DNA of 64,000 bases, from contig NZ_JACIYP010000010.1 of assembly GCF_014359905.1 (NCBI RefSeq), forward strand, positions 22,456 to 86,455, written 5' to 3'. Below, piece by piece: positions 365 to 49,140 of the stretch. The position numbers and the translations under genes were made by a program. The DNA is from Hoeflea sp. (GTDB lineage Bacteria > Pseudomonadota > Alphaproteobacteria > Rhizobiales > Rhizobiaceae). The notes beneath the pieces were generated by a model. It did no database searches. It had not been told where the DNA came from and saw only the letters and a list, made by a program, of their open reading frames with translations. Position 1 is the first letter of the stretch; the number at the start of each line of letters is the position of its first letter.

Positions 365-811
365 TCAAATTACGCGATTCATACAGCCGGAAGCTGCACC
401 ATATATTGGGGTGCCGGAGCTAACGGGATAAGCCGTATTGATATTTAATTTTTTACTGACAGATTGCCAAAGTTCAGGTGGATTACTCGCCAATCTAGGC
501 GTCTCGGTGATTAAGTTTAGGCCTACTAGAGCGTATTTTTTGTTATCACCTTTGGCAGAAGGGTGCGCGTAGGTTCCTTGTTCGACACCGATAATTTTTC
601 CTTCTTCGCAAAGCCCCAGAAATGCATTCTTGGGGCAGGGTTTCATTCGTGAATAATTTGGTTCTGTCGAATCAGGTTTGTCCGGCCAAATGTCCTTGGC
701 CGCTTGCACCCACGCTTCTTGAGGGGTTTGCCGAGACTTCGTGTTTTGCAGTGCCTTCGCTGCTTTGATTGCAGCTTCTCCATATTTACCGAAGTTCTCA
801 ACACTTTTCAT
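365..811 (-). CDS. Hypothetical protein, DUF6979-like
   Basis: ORF 365..829 (-), probable start MKSVENFGKYGEAAIKAAKAL; motif CPKNAFLGLCEEGKIIGV; lower GC than flanks. Confidence 0.6.
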   Translation of the reverse strand: MKSVENFGKYGEAAIKAAKALQNTKSRQTPQEAWVQAAKDIWPDKPDSTEPNYSRMKPCPKNAFLGLCEEGKIIGVEQGTYAHPSAKGDNKKYALVGLNLITETPRLASNPPELWQSVSKKLNINTAYPVSSGTPIYGAASGCMNRVI

Positions 812-978
812 CAGTGCAATGCTCCACAATTGTCCAAAAATTTGTATCGGACAGGATAACCAAAATCAGATTGGCTGCAATTCGCGGTGAACTGAAGCCG
901 CCACACCCGCTCGGGCCGCGTGGCGCTGTGGATAATAGCTGCGGCCATGGTCTGGATCGCGCTTGCCCTCCACCCCAT

Positions 979-1419
979 ATGGTAGGGATGGTCTCGTACC
1001 GCCCGATTTCTCTCGATGACACCGACATGCACCCCCTGGCCGACGAAGCCTGGGAAGACGGCTATCCCTTTGTCGAGCGCATGCTGCAAGACTGGAGGTT
1101 GGGCGAAAACCGCTTCGACGGCCCGGGCGCGCGGCTGATCGGCGCCTTCGAGGGCGACCGGCCGATCGGCTTCTGCGGCCTGTGCCGCGATCCTTTCACG
1201 GACGAGAATGTCGGCCGCCTTCGCCATCTCTATGTCGATCGCGGCCATCGCCATGCAGGCGTCGCCAAGGCGCTGGTGGCGCAGGCGCTTGACGGCGCCG
1301 CCATCTGGTTCCCGCGCGTCCGCCTGCGCGCCACGCCGGCGTCGCGGACCTTCTACGAGCATCTGGGCTTCCACACGGTCGACGAGGCCGACGCCACCCA
1401 CACGCTGCGGCTGCGGTGA
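979..1419 (+). CDS. GNAT family N-acetyltransferase
   Basis: ORF with GNAT-type segment LRHLYVDRGHRHAGVAKALVAQAL...FYEHLGFHTVD; start chosen at ATG 979. Confidence 0.75.
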   Translation: MVGMVSYRPISLDDTDMHPLADEAWEDGYPFVERMLQDWRLGENRFDGPGARLIGAFEGDRPIGFCGLCRDPFTDENVGRLRHLYVDRGHRHAGVAKALVAQALDGAAIWFPRVRLRATPASRTFYEHLGFHTVDEADATHTLRLR

Positions 1420-1682
1420 TGCCGGCCGGATCGGCCAGGCCCGGATGGGCCGGGTCGGGACGAGCAGGCACGGCGATGAGGCCGGAGCGCGCCGCCGGAT
1501 TTGCAATTCGAGCCCGTTTCCCGCAAACTGGCGCCTGGTTCGGCCATCAAGCGCCGGGCCAACATTCGCCGACGGCAGCATCTGCGCCGTCAGGGCAGGA
1601 AACCCGGCAGCGGGATGCAAGCCGCACCCCGATCCGTGACAGCACGGACGCGCCGGGACAGACACAAGCATTGGATACACAT

Positions 1683-2120
1683 ATGAGCGAGGCCAAATCC
1701 GGCGACACCGTGCGGATCAATTATACCGGCAAACTGACAGACGGCACCAGGTTCGACAGTTCCGAGGGACGCGAGCCGCTTGAATTCCAGGTGGGCGCCG
1801 GCCAGATCATCAGCGGTCTTGACCGCGAAGTCGAGGGCATGAAGGTCGGCGACAAGCAGACCGTGACCGTTCCGGCCGAAGAGGCCTACGGCGCCCATGA
1901 CTCGGCGAAGGTGCAGAAGGTTCCGCGCAACGCCCTGCCGCCGGAAATCGAGCCGCAGCAAGGCATGCAGCTTCAGGCCCGCACGCCCGATGGCGGGCAG
2001 GTGCCGCTCGTCGTCACTGCCGTCGAGGCGGAGGAAATCACCGTCGACGCCAACCATCCCCTGGCCGGCCAGGACCTTGTGTTCGACATCGAAGTCGTCG
2101 AGATCGTCAAGGCGGCCTGA
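1683..2120 (+). CDS. FKBP-type peptidyl-prolyl cis-trans isomerase
   Basis: MSEAKSGDTVRINYTGKLTDGTRFDSSEGREPLEFQVGAGQIISGLDREVEGMKVGDK is typical FKBP/SlyD-like; start within ORF 1416..2120. Confidence 0.9.
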   Translation: MSEAKSGDTVRINYTGKLTDGTRFDSSEGREPLEFQVGAGQIISGLDREVEGMKVGDKQTVTVPAEEAYGAHDSAKVQKVPRNALPPEIEPQQGMQLQARTPDGGQVPLVVTAVEAEEITVDANHPLAGQDLVFDIEVVEIVKAA

Positions 2121-2135
2121 GCGCACGAGACCTGG

Positions 2136-2160
2136 ACAACCCGGCCAGGTGCCGGGTTGT
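2136..2160 (+). terminator. Perfect 10-bp hairpin downstream of the FKBP gene, possible terminator
   Basis: ACAACCCGGC-CAGGT-GCCGGGTTGT; no strong U-tract follows. Confidence 0.4.
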
Positions 2161-2302
2161 CTGTCCGCTTCGGAAGACAGCTCCTGTCGCGGCCCGCCGC
2201 CCGGGCAAATGGGCGGATGCGCCGGTGGTCAGCCGCGTTTGACTGCACTGCATGCAATGCCTGCATTGCAGTCACGATCAAACCCGTCGACGAGGAGGCT
2301 CC

Positions 2303-2407
2303 CTGGCAACACGGACCATCCGCAATCTCGACGATTCCATCAAGCAGGCCCTGCGCGAACGCGCCGCCCGCCATGGCGTGTCCATGGAGCTTGGAAAAAT
2401 TTCCTGA
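2303..2407 (+). pseudogene. Truncated FitA/VapB-like ribbon-helix-helix antitoxin remnant
   Basis: Frame reads LATRTIRNLDDSIKQALRERAARHGVSMELGKIS* after GGAGG; paralogous to the N-terminus of the next ORF (MASLTIRNLDETAKQRLRERAARNGRSMEEE); ATG appears replaced by CTG and the C-terminus is lost. Confidence 0.65.
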
Positions 2408-43226: not shown

Positions 43227-44219
43227 TCAGTTAAGCCCCGCCTCGCTGGCGGCGTCCTTGAGCGACATCAGCGGCCGCGGGCCGATCTGCTGGATCACCA
43301 GGCCGGCGGCGAGACTGCCGAGCTTGCCGCAGATGTCGAGCGGCTTGCCCTGCGCATAGCCATGCAGGAAGCCCGCGGCGTAGAGATCGCCGGCGCCGGT
43401 GGTGTCGACCACCTCATCGACCGGATGGGCCGCAACGTCGACGCGCTCGCCGCCCGACAGGATCAGCGATCCGAGTTCGGAGCGGGTGATGACGGCAATC
43501 CGGCAATCCTTGCCGAGCTGCCGCGCCGCATCCTCGAAGTCGTCGGTTTCGTAGAGCGATTTCACTTCATCGGAATTGGCGAAGACGATGTCGATGGTGC
43601 CCGAGCGCATCAGCTCGAGGAATTCATCGCGGTAGCGGCCGACGCAGAAGGGATCCGACAGGGTGATGGCCATTTCACGGCCGTGCTTGTGGCCGATCTC
43701 GGCGGCGAGCCGGATGGCTTCCTTGGCGCGCGGCGGATCCCACAGGTAGCCCTCGAAATAGGTGACCTTGGAATCCGCCACCACATCAGCCTCGATGTCC
43801 TCGGGCCCGAGCTCGACGCAGGCGCCGAGATAGGTGTTCATCGAGCGCTCGCCGTCGGGCGTCACAAAGATCATCGAGCGCGCCGTGGGCGGCGTGCCGT
43901 CGAGCGGCTGGGTCGCGAAATGCACGCCCTGGGCGCGGATGTCATGGGTGTAGATCTGGCCCAGCTGGTCGGCCGAGACCTTGCCGAAATAGGCCGAGCG
44001 GCTGCCGAAGCTGGCGATGCCGGCGGCGGTGTTGCCGGCGCTGCCGCCCGATGCCTCGATCGCCGGACCCATCCGCGAATACAGAAGTTCGGCGCGCTCG
44101 GCGTCGATCAGGTTCATCGCGCCCTTGATGATGGCGTTGTCGACGAGAAAACCCTCGTCGCAGCGGGCGATGATATCGACAATGGCGTTGCCGATGCAAA
44201 GGACGTCAAACTTGCTCAT
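43227..44219 (-). CDS. PfkB family kinase, adenosine kinase-like
   Basis: FDVLCIGNAIVDIIARCDEGFL...GGSAGNTAAGIASFG...VDTTGAGDLYAAGFLHGYAQGK. Confidence 0.9.
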   Translation of the reverse strand: MSKFDVLCIGNAIVDIIARCDEGFLVDNAIIKGAMNLIDAERAELLYSRMGPAIEASGGSAGNTAAGIASFGSRSAYFGKVSADQLGQIYTHDIRAQGVHFATQPLDGTPPTARSMIFVTPDGERSMNTYLGACVELGPEDIEADVVADSKVTYFEGYLWDPPRAKEAIRLAAEIGHKHGREMAITLSDPFCVGRYRDEFLELMRSGTIDIVFANSDEVKSLYETDDFEDAARQLGKDCRIAVITRSELGSLILSGGERVDVAAHPVDEVVDTTGAGDLYAAGFLHGYAQGKPLDICGKLGSLAAGLVIQQIGPRPLMSLKDAASEAGLN

Positions 44220-44428
44220 GAGATGGTTCCGCTTGGCTGGCTCGTGTGGTCATGTCAGGGAGCTTAATAGCGGTTTGGCGCTCCATTGGAACCCTCGGCT
44301 GCGCAAAATCAGCACACCCTGGCCCGTGTCTCCTGGGTTCTGTCCGGACCGACACTGGCGCAGCCGGCGTTGAAAATTGCGCCACACAGACCGGAAAAAT
44401 GAAATCGTGAGCTGAAACCGGCGGTGAA

Positions 44429-45868
44429 TCAGGCCTCGAACAGGCGCGGGCGCAGGAATTCGGCAAGATTTTCCAGAAATCTCTGTTTCTGCGGGCTGTT
44501 CAGGGCATCGCCGATTTCGCCCAGAACCGCCGAGATCAAGGTTTTCTGGACCCCGCAAAACCAAGCCGGCGGCTTGGCGATCTTTTTCTCGAGCAGGAAC
44601 GAGGAGCCGAGGCAGGACTGGCAGATTTCATTGGCCCAGCACTTGCCGCAGGTCTCGTGATAGTCCTTTCCGTTCTCGACGAATTTTTTCGAGATCCGCG
44701 AGTAGCGGTCCTGATCCCACTCCTTGCCGATGAAGCCGTAGGAGGTTTCGGCCGATTCCAACAGATAGCAGGGAAACGCCTCGCCATCGTAATTGACCGC
44801 CATGAAACTCCGGCCTGCGCCGCAGACATGGGAGTTTTTCGTGCGGTTGACGAAGCCGTCGATGACGAACTGGATGCCCCGCAGCAAAAACGGATCGTCC
44901 GACAGGAAGGACCGGATGCACTCGCGCGCAACCTCCGAGAATTCGGTGGATACCTGCTCTATCTCGGCATAGGCGCCTTCGCCGTGCCAGGAGCCGAGCG
45001 CCAGGGTGATCTGCATCTCCCGCACGCCGAGGCCGAGAAAATGGGCAACCACATCCTTGACGCCGACACCGTTCCGGTAGTGGGTCCGTGTGTAGACCGC
45101 CTCCACCGCCACCGGGTTGCCGGATTGCTGGAATTTTCTGATTGTGTCGGAGACCCTGGCGTAGGAGCCACGGCCGCCGGAGAACGGGCGCAGACTGTCG
45201 TGAATGCTCTGGCTGCCGTCCATGCTGACCAGCACATAGAAATTCCTTGCCGCGAAGAAGGCGATCATCTCATCGGTCACCAGCGTGCCGTTGGTCACGA
45301 TCACGAAGGATGGCGTTGGAACGCCGAGTTCAGTGCATTTCTCTTCGACATAGTCGACGGTGAGGCAGATTTCGCGGAACGCTAGCGCGGGCTCGCCGCC
45401 CAGGAATTTCACGCTCTTCAATCCGTCCCGGGACAGCTGTAGCGCCCGGTCAATGGCGGCCCGGCAGGTCTCGGGGAGCATGATCTTCCTGGATTTGTTC
45501 AGATCCTCGGCATAGCAATAGGAACAGGCCAGATTGCAGATCTGGCTGATGTTCAGCACCAGATCCTTCAATCCGGCGTCGCCGCTTGTCGCAGGGCCGG
45601 GCGGCGGTTCCTTGCCCTCGATGAAGCTTTCAAAGAAGCTGCGCGCGGCCTCCTCAAAGGGTTTCTCGCCAGGCAGGTTCTTTGAAAACGCATCGGACCG
45701 GAACTCTTCGAGTTCCGCGATCACGGCGCCGGGCGCCTCGAAAATCGTGCAGACCTCGGGCAGGAAGATGTAGTCGCCTTGCGACCCGGACACGATGGTG
45801 AAGCGGCCTTTCGCGGCGTCATTTGGCACGGGCTGCGGCGCTGTGCCGCTGGGAATCGAAGGGGACAT
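44429..45868 (-). CDS. Radical SAM/SPASM RiPP maturase-like enzyme
   Basis: [4Fe-4S]/SAM motif CNLACSYC; GGEPAL; SPASM-like cysteines CGAGRSFMAVNYDGEAFPCY ... CGKCWANEICQSCLGSS; about 85-aa N-terminal extension compatible with an RRE-like domain; RBS GGAAGAG. Confidence 0.92.
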   Translation of the reverse strand: MSPSIPSGTAPQPVPNDAAKGRFTIVSGSQGDYIFLPEVCTIFEAPGAVIAELEEFRSDAFSKNLPGEKPFEEAARSFFESFIEGKEPPPGPATSGDAGLKDLVLNISQICNLACSYCYAEDLNKSRKIMLPETCRAAIDRALQLSRDGLKSVKFLGGEPALAFREICLTVDYVEEKCTELGVPTPSFVIVTNGTLVTDEMIAFFAARNFYVLVSMDGSQSIHDSLRPFSGGRGSYARVSDTIRKFQQSGNPVAVEAVYTRTHYRNGVGVKDVVAHFLGLGVREMQITLALGSWHGEGAYAEIEQVSTEFSEVARECIRSFLSDDPFLLRGIQFVIDGFVNRTKNSHVCGAGRSFMAVNYDGEAFPCYLLESAETSYGFIGKEWDQDRYSRISKKFVENGKDYHETCGKCWANEICQSCLGSSFLLEKKIAKPPAWFCGVQKTLISAVLGEIGDALNSPQKQRFLENLAEFLRPRLFEA

Positions 45869-45943
45869 GACGCTCTTCCATTTCGAAAACGGGTGATCCA
45901 GTGCGGCGGCCGATGGATTTCGGCCGCCGCGGAGGCAAGTGTG

Positions 45944-46147
45944 TCAGCCGCAGCCGATCCCGCCGCAATTGGCCCGCGTTGCCGCCGCAAGCTCCGAGAG
46001 CTTGTTGATGTCGTCGGCGCTCATTGCGGCGATGGCTTCCTTGTTCGCCATCAGCGCGCGGATCGGCCCCGCTCCAATGGCTTCGGCGACTTTCTCGATG
46101 TCCCTGCCCGACAGATGGGACAGGTCCGGTGCATCTCTGGATCCCAT
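45944..46147 (-). CDS. Candidate RiPP precursor peptide (67 aa)
   Basis: MGSRDAPDLSHLSGRDIEKVAEAIGAGPIRALMANKEAIAAMSADDINKLSELAAATRANCGGIGCG; RBS AGGGAG 7 nt upstream of ATG 46147; 75 bp upstream of and co-oriented with the radical SAM gene; helical leader and Gly/Cys C-terminus. Confidence 0.8.
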   Translation of the reverse strand: MGSRDAPDLSHLSGRDIEKVAEAIGAGPIRALMANKEAIAAMSADDINKLSELAAATRANCGGIGCG

Positions 46148-46257
46148 ATTTCGCTCCCTGTGTTCGATGAACCTGGATCTGGGACCGGTTCGAACAGCCC
46201 GGACCCATTGCCATGGTAGCATGCCTCAAAGGCAAAATAAACCTGAAGTAGCAAAAT

Positions 46258-46279
46258 ATTATAAATGCAACCAATTGCA
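46258..46279 (-). promoter_or_regulatory. -10-like box and adjacent inverted repeat upstream of the RiPP cassette
   Basis: TATAAT on minus strand (46258-46263) in an AT-rich patch; TGCAA-ttgg-TTGCA at 46266-46279; no good -35 seen. Confidence 0.4.
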
Positions 46280-46389
46280 GACTGCCCGTTGAATCGGGCC
46301 GCCCCGCAGGAACGGCGGCGCAGAATATCAACAAGGGGGGGCGGGATGCAGGGCGCGTGGAAGGGCTCGGCTACCGGCAGCGGCGGCAG

Positions 46390-49140
46390 TCAGCCCTGAC
46401 CCGGCTCCGCGAGCCGCCGCTTGAGATCATACAGCGCCTCGAGCGCTTCGCGCGGCGTCATGTCGTCGGGATTGAGAGCCGCGAGATAGGCGTCCGATGC
46501 GGACGGACCCTTCGCGGGACGTGCCGGTTCGCGGTTCACCGGGACCGCGAACAGCGGCAGATCGTCGATCAGCCGGGTTGCCGGATTTTCCCGCTCGGTC
46601 GATTCAAGCAAATCCAGCACCTCACGGGCCCGCGCCACCACGGCGTCGGGAAGGCCCGCCAGCCGCGCCACCTGGATGCCGTAGGAGCGGTCGGCGGCAC
46701 CGGGTCCGACCTCGTGCAGGAACACCACGTCGCCCTGCCATTCCTTGACCTTCATGGTGGCGTTATGCAGCCGCGGCAGCTTGTCCGACAGGGCGGTCAA
46801 TTCGTGGAAATGGGTGGCGAAGAGGCCGCGGCAGCGGTTTTGCGCATGCAGGTGCTCGACCGCCGCCCAGGCGATCGACAGCCCGTCGAAGGTCGCGGTG
46901 CCGCGCCCGATCTCGTCGAGGATGACGAGCGAGCGCGGGCCGGCCTGGTTGAGGATCGCCGCGGTCTCGACCATCTCGACCATGAAGGTGGAGCGCCCGC
47001 GCGCGAGATCATCCGACGCCCCGACGCGCGAGAACAGCCGGTCGACCGCGCCTATATGGGCGGCCCCCGCCGGCACGAAGGAACCCATCTGCGCCAGGAT
47101 CGCAATCAGCGCGTTTTGTCTCAGGAAGGTCGACTTGCCGCCCATGTTGGGGCCGGTCAGGAGCCAGATCGCGCCGCCTTCGGGCCTGCCCTCGGGCGGC
47201 GAAAGATCGCAATCATTGGCGACGAAGGGCTGGGCAGCCTGCTTGCGCAGCGCCTGCTCGACCACCGGATGCCGCCCGGCCACGATCTCGAAGGCGAGGC
47301 TGTCGTCGACCCTCGGCCGTGCATAGCCCTGTTCCTGGGCAAGCTCGGCCAGCGCCGCCGTCACGTCGATCACCGACAGCGCGTCTGCCGCCGCCTTGAT
47401 CGCGTCGGCGTGGGACACCGCAAGCCGCACGAGCGCGTCAAAGGCCGCCAGTTCGATCGCCAGCGCCTCGCCCGCCGCATTGGCGATGCGGGTCTCGAGA
47501 TCGGACAGTTCCGTGGTGGTGAAGCGCATGGCGTTGGCCATGGTCTGACGGTGGATGAACCGCGACCTTGCCGCGTCGCCCTCGGTCAGCGGCCCGGCGT
47601 TCTGGGCGGTCACCTCGATGAAATAGCCCAGCATGTTGTTGTGCTTGATCTTGAGCGAGCGCACGCCGGTGTCCTCGGCATAGGACAGTTGCAGCCCGGC
47701 AATCACCCGGCGCGACTGGTCGCGGAGCGCCCGCAGCTCGTCCAGTTCAGGGGAATGGCCGCCGCGCACGAAGCCGCCGTCGCGCTTCATCAGCGGCAGT
47801 TCGTCATCGAGCGTCGCGGCGAACTGCGCGGCGATTTCTGCGGGAAGCGCCTCGAGCGCGGTCACCGCGCGCGCCAGATGCTCGGGCGGGTCGCCGTCGG
47901 CAAACAGGGTGGCAATATCGCCCGCCGCTCTGACGCCGGTCAGGATCGCGCCCAGATCGCGCGGGCCGCCGCGGTTGAGCGCCAGCCGCGACAGCGCGCG
48001 CGGCATGTCGGCCACGCCCTTCAGCGCCCGCCTTAGCGTCGCGGTCAGCGTCTGTTCGGCCATCAGCCAGGAGACGCCGTCGAGCCGGGCGTTGATGGCG
48101 CCGGGATCGGTCAAGGGCGCCATCAGCCATTCGGCAAGCTTGCGTCCGCCGCCGCCGGTCACGGTGCGGTCGATGGCCTTGATCAGGCTGCCCTGCCGGT
48201 CGCCCGAGAGCGTGCGCACCAGCTCGAGATTGGCCCGGGTCGCCGGGTCGATGAACATCCGCGCCCCGTCGCTGTCGCGTTCGGGCCTGCCGAGCGGCGG
48301 GCGTTCGGAGATCTGGGTCTTTTCGACATAGGCGATGACGGCGGCCGCCGCTGCAAGTTCGGCGCGCGAAAAGCTGCCGAAGCCGTCGAGCGAGCCCACC
48401 TCGAAGAACCGCGAGATCCGCCCCTCGGCGGTGGCGCTGTCGAACAGCACCGCCGGCTGCGGCGAGGCCACCCGCCCGATCTGGTCGATCAGCGGCCGGA
48501 GTTCGGGATCGTGGAACACGTTCTCCGCCAGGATCAATTCGCTCGGCTCCACCCGGGCGATATCGGCCAGCAGCCGCGCCGCACGGCTCTCGGCGACATG
48601 GAAGGCGCCGGTAGAAATGTCGATCCAGGCGAGCCCGAACTGCGCCTCGCTTGACCCCTTGATGCGCGCGAGCGCCATCAGGAAATTCGACTGAGACGGA
48701 TCGAGCAGCCTCTCTTCGGTCAGTGTTCCGGGCGTCACCAGCCGCGTGACGTCGCGTCGGACCACCGATTTGGCGCCGCGCTTCTTGGCCTCGGCCGGAT
48801 CCTCGGTCTGCTCGCAGACCGCCACCCGGAAGCCGAGCGAAATCAGTTTCTGCAGGTAATCGTCGGCGGCATGCACCGGCACGCCGCACATCGGGATGTC
48901 CTGGCCCAGGTGCTGGCCGCGCTTGGTCAGCGTGATGCCGAGCGCCCGCGAGGCGTCGACCGCGTCCTCGAAGAACAGCTCGTAGAAATCACCCATCCGG
49001 TAGAACAGCAGCGAATCCGGGTTGGCCGCCTTGATCTCGATGAACTGCTCCATCATCGGCGTGGCCGTGGCGCGGCTTTCCGGAGTGGCAAGCTGGGCCG
49101 TCGTCAGCGTGGCGGGAGGGAGCGGGTTTTCGGCGTTCAA
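46390..49140 (-). CDS. mutS: DNA mismatch repair protein MutS
   Basis: [49 protein letters not shown]...[32 protein letters not shown]. Confidence 0.97.

Follow-up and report, generated by a model that had tools for sequence, protein, structure and literature searches.

Among the systems described to date, those closest to the locus reported here are the pairs of peptide and maturase PapA/PapB (a ranthipeptide system), CteA/CteB (with SCIFF) and streptosactin GggA/GggB, together with QhpD, which matures quinohemoprotein amine dehydrogenase. PapB links Cys-X3-Asp sites (PMC8172795, PMC9413430), with Asp or Glu serving as the acceptor (PMC8172795). CteB is organized in three domains, an RRE, a radical SAM and a SPASM domain, and its first auxiliary cluster has an open site (PMC6231123). 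Streptosactin carries the unnested S-C-alpha bonds Cys31-Gly34 and Cys25-Ser28 (PMC8172795). The SPASM motif given in the literature is CX2CX5CX3C (PMC5715301).

Here we examine a locus of Hoeflea sp. (Rhizobiaceae) within a window of 64,000 nucleotides, by which we mean the whole stretch of DNA that was analysed (Table 1). A gene for a small peptide and a gene for a radical SAM/SPASM maturase stand there side by side, and this peptide-maturase pairing is well supported. Judged by the enzyme motif and the conserved adjacent gene, the pair is of the radical SAM RiPP type. We consider it probable that it constitutes a minimal two-gene RiPP system in which the tail cysteines become thioether-linked, possibly as a sactionine over C-x-x-G; the chemistry, like the bioactivity and the product, is what we infer. 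The open-access literature, seen mostly as titles and abstracts, yielded no description of the window peptide or of the CX2CX5CX2C motif of its maturase.

The window pair is like each of the described systems in some respects and unlike it in others. PapB (NF047865) is the best NCBIfam model of the maturase, and the two systems share the combination of radical SAM and SPASM domains and a cysteine-bearing peptide partner, but the window tail lacks the Cys-X3-Asp sites and the window SPASM motif is contracted. PapB chemistry does not suit the tail NCGGIGCG because no acidic residue is present there. CteB (TIGR03974; 5wgg) resembles the maturase in fold over nearly the whole chain, including the N-terminal domain, whereas the window precursor has two cysteines against the six of SCIFF, and SCIFF-like relatives occupy a separate clade. 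With streptosactin (NF050038) the pair shares a short core of cysteine and glycine, the C-x-x-G spacing being that of the Cys31-Gly34 sactionine, but streptosactin is streptococcal and comes with a protease and regulators belonging to that system (PMC8172795). QhpD (TIGR03906) is similar in length and domain plan, but no dehydrogenase subunits adjoin the window enzyme and QhpD relatives also fall in a separate clade; on tree and gene context we reject a QhpD reading, and on scores and tree we also reject readings of the Nif11, HxsB and SCIFF type.

Table 1. Features of the two-gene locus and its neighbours, in window positions.
Feature	Position	Strand	Basis or remark
pfkB	43227-44219		Neighbour of the pair
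Radical SAM/SPASM maturase, 479 aa	44429-45868	-	Pfam PF04055, NCBIfam, structure model
SPASM domain with contracted motif C407-C419, then C438	44555..44824	-	CX2C in 7 clade members
RRE-like N-terminal domain, residues about 22-84 (putative)	45617..45805	-	Predicted structure and near whole-chain CteB alignment
Precursor-maturase spacer, 75 bp	45869..45943	-	Perfect 11-bp G+C-rich hairpin at about 45902-45929
Precursor gene, 67 aa	45944..46147	-	ORF; protein unchanged in congener G014
Proposed core NCGGIGCG, residues 60-67	45947..45970	-	Comparison with clade tails GGCFIGCSGAAS, GNCGIGCW, GNCGNGCAG
Precursor ribosome-binding site AGGGAG	46154..46159	-	Sequence; 6 nt from ATG
mutS	46390-49140		Neighbour of the pair

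The original prediction had described a co-oriented 67-residue ORF with a good ribosome-binding site upstream of a radical SAM enzyme with CNLACSYC and SPASM-type cysteines, flanked by pfkB and mutS. The coordinates, the distance, the shared orientation (minus strand for both ORFs), the AGGGAG and the flanking genes were all confirmed, as was the enzyme, by its sequence and by Pfam. CNLACSYC is a CX3CX2C radical SAM motif (Radical_SAM, PF04055, E 1.6e-16). The Pfam SPASM model scores 21.2 bits, slightly below its cut-off of 21.5; the cysteines are nonetheless visible in the sequence and in alignments, as C349-x12-G-x4-C367, then C407-x2-C410-x5-C416-x2-C419, and then C438. Because the first SPASM part holds only two cysteines (C349 and C367), the first auxiliary cluster could possibly have an open site, as in CteB. 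Scores against family models were 178.8 bits for PapB (cut-off 340), 157.2 bits for QhpD (E 5.5e-46; cut-off 453), 147.3 bits for SCIFF (cut-off 425) and 91.5 bits for anSME (TIGR03942, E 5.5e-26; cut-off 349.45), and among the named maturase families listed in NCBIfam and Pfam no curated cut-off was reached, in agreement with the earlier view that the type could not be assigned. PADLOC matches to viperin reflected generic radical SAM similarity and were rejected.

An AlphaFold2 model of the maturase, built from 29 sequences (pLDDT 85.4, pTM 0.85), found its best PDB match by Foldseek in CteB 5wgg (E 2.3e-26, TM 0.79 by target length, 459 columns). Its N-terminus, for which an RRE search had been proposed, is predicted to form three strands followed by three helices (E24-27, E32-36, E41-44, H47-57, H59-64 and H70-83), a fold consistent with an RRE. 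This domain is absent in four related enzymes introduced below (G006, L065, L082 and G937), which begin at the radical SAM core.

A tree of 30 proteins grouped the window maturase with those of the congener G014, G847, the Acidobacteriaceae locus L071, the congener G006, a plasmid of Methylocystis parvus (L065), the deltaproteobacterial MAG L082 and another pseudomonadote, G937 (support 97/91), and separated this clade from QhpD, SCIFF-like, Nif11 and HxsB-type enzymes. Within the clade G006, M. parvus, L082 and G937 form a firm group (100/99), and the window enzyme joins G847 with low support (81/54); it shares just 23-30% identity with the other members. With G014 included the clade holds at least eight enzymes, a lower bound for a group that is under-sampled. 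Seven members carry CX2CX5CX2C, while all other relatives with a recognisable motif, including 14 checked later, carry CX2CX5CX3C; in L071, where the first part of the SPASM motif has been lost, the end is likewise CX2C. We take the contracted form as a mark of the clade, a sequence signature whose support is not independent of the tree because the motif columns are part of the alignment and the motif drew attention only once the tree had been built. The best family models of the clade are thioether-forming, PapB for nearly all members, with GggB (NF050038) second for L082 at 116 bits, below its cut-off of 650. The M. parvus enzyme (L065, 3998-5125, plus strand), which came up when plasmids were searched with the L082 enzyme, is a possible orphan: its gene lies on its own behind a TniB/TniQ-type transposon, and no precursor was found beside it on the plasmid.

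Other pairings of radical SAM genes and small peptides were observed in the material. The window's own genome encodes a second radical SAM/SPASM enzyme (locus L030, G000:C46:29925-33386; 781-2328, minus strand; 515 aa; CcpM 288 bits, cut-off 500), and the 68-aa peptide just upstream of it, MTDDILKSASEDELKEALIFARN...TTACNENCDCYGGTM..., is unlike the window pair. A Sulfuricella MAG (L070, 5872-10720, plus strand) has a short Cys-rich peptide (..LCACCGTQGGRMCGCGPRV) ahead of three tandem radical SAM/SPASM genes, and behind these comes an ORF resembling an ABC transporter ATPase. In genome G097 (L006, 2706-3065 and 3385-3714, plus strand) two precursor-like peptides ending YWGWWRNCWQNCWRNCWRNCY lie beside a radical SAM gene whose product reaches no listed NCBIfam cut-off (PapB 114 bits).

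The precursor, MGSRDAPDLSHLSGRDIEKVAEAIGAGPIRALMANKEAIAAMSADDINKLSELAAATRANCGGIGCG, combines a helical-type leader with the C-terminal tail N60-CGGIGCG67, and nothing above chance matched it in Pfam or NCBIfam. An in-frame ATG further upstream would give a 92-aa version; the shorter start is the better one because the 67 residues vary at no position in the congener G014 while the 25 extra residues vary at several. Between the window and G014 the peptide gene differs at 4 of 204 nucleotides, all of them third-position and synonymous, so that the proteins are identical. The synonymous share of weighted single changes in this ORF is 27%, and four synonymous changes out of four would arise by chance in about 0.5% of cases, which supports a coding ORF under purifying selection. 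The maturase gene differs at 89 nucleotides and 24 amino acids in the same comparison. The spacer between the two genes has folding energies of -32.5 and -32.4 kcal/mol in the window and G014, with a similar hairpin in both; this hairpin is a possible transcript stabiliser or attenuator and may set the ratio of precursor to enzyme. No Rfam match and, by consensus, no sigma-70-like promoter was found at the locus.

In G014 the same pair occupies the same place between mutS and pfkB, with a maturase 95% identical. The pair is found at this site in 2 of 18 genomes searched within the genus, and in 14 congener stretches without it mutS adjoins pfkB. The gap between them is empty and 90-130 bp long in six congeners (G004, G006, G001, G017, G013 and G015) and measures 177 bp in G009. 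In seven others (G005, G010, G012, G011, G003, G016 and G002) it holds a P-loop kinase-like ORF (MPKFVITGASGGGKSTLI...). The gap (window 44220-46389; congener stretches L218-L231) is therefore a variable spot that is empty or is filled by the kinase-like ORF or by the RiPP pair, and the two genes were gained or lost together with nothing else accompanying them. The G+C content of the maturase gene (60%) lies below that of mutS (69%) and pfkB (65%), which fits acquisition of the pair. Beyond pfkB lies a LysE-type translocator, an addition to the neighbourhood first described, which we did not count in the cassette because it adjoins pfkB in cassette-free congeners too. Note that the window assembly is marked as 8.29% contaminated; the cassette contig is nonetheless syntenic with those of congeners.

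Searches with the peptide itself returned little. A single-peptide search of 398 genomes of the family gave only two identical copies above noise, and a profile search of 385 genomes of the class returned only the window peptide; the group is consequently rare. Plasmids searched with the window peptide and with the L082 peptide gave no precursor. The original prediction of a radical SAM RiPP gained support at the maturase homologues, where the absence of a peptide had been named as the finding that would count against it: peptides were found next to the enzyme in G014, G006, L082 and G937. In the third congener, G006, the enzyme lies at a different site and shares 32% identity over the core; the peptide MGHQNNISFDGL...LAAAGNGGCFIGCSGAAS precedes it. 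In L082, among the matches listed in a scan of genome contigs, the clade enzyme is accompanied by MAGQTIVNFDGL...TDGNTGNCGIGCW. A maturase profile made from the G006, L082 and M. parvus enzymes and run against 399 genomes of the phylum recovered G937 (421.8 bits) with the precursor MSGQTIVNFDGL...MADGNCGNGCAG; this pair is an out-of-sample case because it came to light when we already knew of the tail motif. In G847 and L071, Cys/Gly-tailed peptides that depart from the strict motif lie downstream of the enzyme (NFCCSGVG and ACGGGCGRGASC...).

Tails of the form C-x(2,3)-G-C thus adjoin the maturase in four independent lineages, as NCGGIGCG, GGCFIGCSGAAS, GNCGIGCW and GNCGNGCAG, and both cysteines are kept in all four. 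The control was a set of 111 radical SAM genes from elsewhere than the clade; of the 343 co-oriented small ORFs adjacent to them, none ends in this motif. The comparison (4 of 7 clade lineages against 0 of 111 controls) gives a Fisher p of 4.6e-6, a value that is only indicative because the motif was chosen after the first cases had been seen. Scored with a profile built from the other three precursors, the window peptide reached 12.6 bits (best of 2000 shuffles, 8.6). In a pool of 11,432 small ORFs only the members of the profile itself ranked above it, though with E = 0.21. Judged by sequence alone, the resemblance in leader and tail is weak; it is suggestive of common descent of the four precursors, a proposal that gains from gene position and from the enzyme tree. 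The clade loci looked at have no third gene in common, and no protease or exporter accompanies the pair. At G937 the gene after the maturase is of the ShlB/FhaC two-partner secretion type (L197, 241-1806, minus strand) and is a possible exporter of the product there; it was seen at that locus only among those looked at and was not counted as a cassette partner.

In the mechanism that we favor, residues of about 1-59 would act as a leader held by the RRE-like N-terminal domain, as the predicted fold suggests. By analogy with the enzyme family, the radical SAM cluster would generate a 5'-deoxyadenosyl radical, this would abstract a hydrogen from one residue of the short C-terminal tail, a tail cysteine would be joined to this acceptor as a thioether, and the auxiliary SPASM clusters would take up an electron or hold the cysteine. 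The likeliest bonds would run from Cys61 to a residue three or four positions on (Ile64 or Gly65) and from Cys66 to an earlier residue. C-x-x-G spacing occurs in 3 of the 4 tails, and in the window the glycine stands one residue further (C-G-G-I-G); the spacing in those three is compatible with the S-C-alpha bond of a sactipeptide. Leader removal and export would presumably use general host functions, because the pair comes with neither a protease nor an exporter.

Radical SAM/SPASM enzymes are described in reviews as capable of several reactions, and the pair could be a RiPP system of non-thioether chemistry, with a C-C cross-link, oxidation, epimerisation or other change of the tail Gly, Asn or Ile and with the cysteines, spaced C-x(3,4)-C, serving as metal or redox ligands. 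The SPASM loop in its contracted form differs from that of thioether maturases among the relatives, and a tail with two cysteines also suits a metal site. We nevertheless regard this chemistry as unlikely, given that both cysteines persist across the four lineages, that the closest structures and models are thioether formers and that, for a cyclophane, the window tail offers no aromatic residue. A more tentative proposal, less likely than not, is that the contracted-SPASM clade represents a separate RiPP class, in which altered geometry of the auxiliary clusters would go with a new cross-link in the minimal C-x(2,3)-G-C tail, such as two glycine/asparagine alpha-thioethers confined to six to eight residues, made by a mobile, self-sufficient two-gene unit.

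It is far less probable that the maturase acts on another protein, in the manner of anSME or QhpD, and that the small ORF has no connection with the enzyme it adjoins. Both profiles match the enzyme at the E-values given above, far below their cut-offs, but its flanks are pfkB and mutS with no sulfatase or amine dehydrogenase gene adjacent, and the anSME-type function that the original prediction had held open is not borne out by the scores, nor a grouping with QhpD by the tree. Furthermore, selection on the peptide is purifying, peptide and enzyme move together, and the type of pair recurs in other lineages. Equally hard to sustain is the suggestion that the pair is what remains, decaying or orphaned, of a larger RiPP cluster whose product is no longer made. 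The patchy distribution at the mutS-pfkB site and the lack of an exporter or protease would agree with it; all catalytic and cluster cysteines are intact, however, the peptide is invariant between two species, and the other lineages looked at are also without a constant third gene.

As a two-gene system with a core of about eight residues, the pair offers a small and testable RiPP system in Pseudomonadota. The loss of one residue between two cluster ligands constitutes an enzyme signature that experiment could link to the type of bond formed. Together, the SPASM signature and the tail motif provide simple search terms for the rest of this group, which the family libraries searched do not cover.
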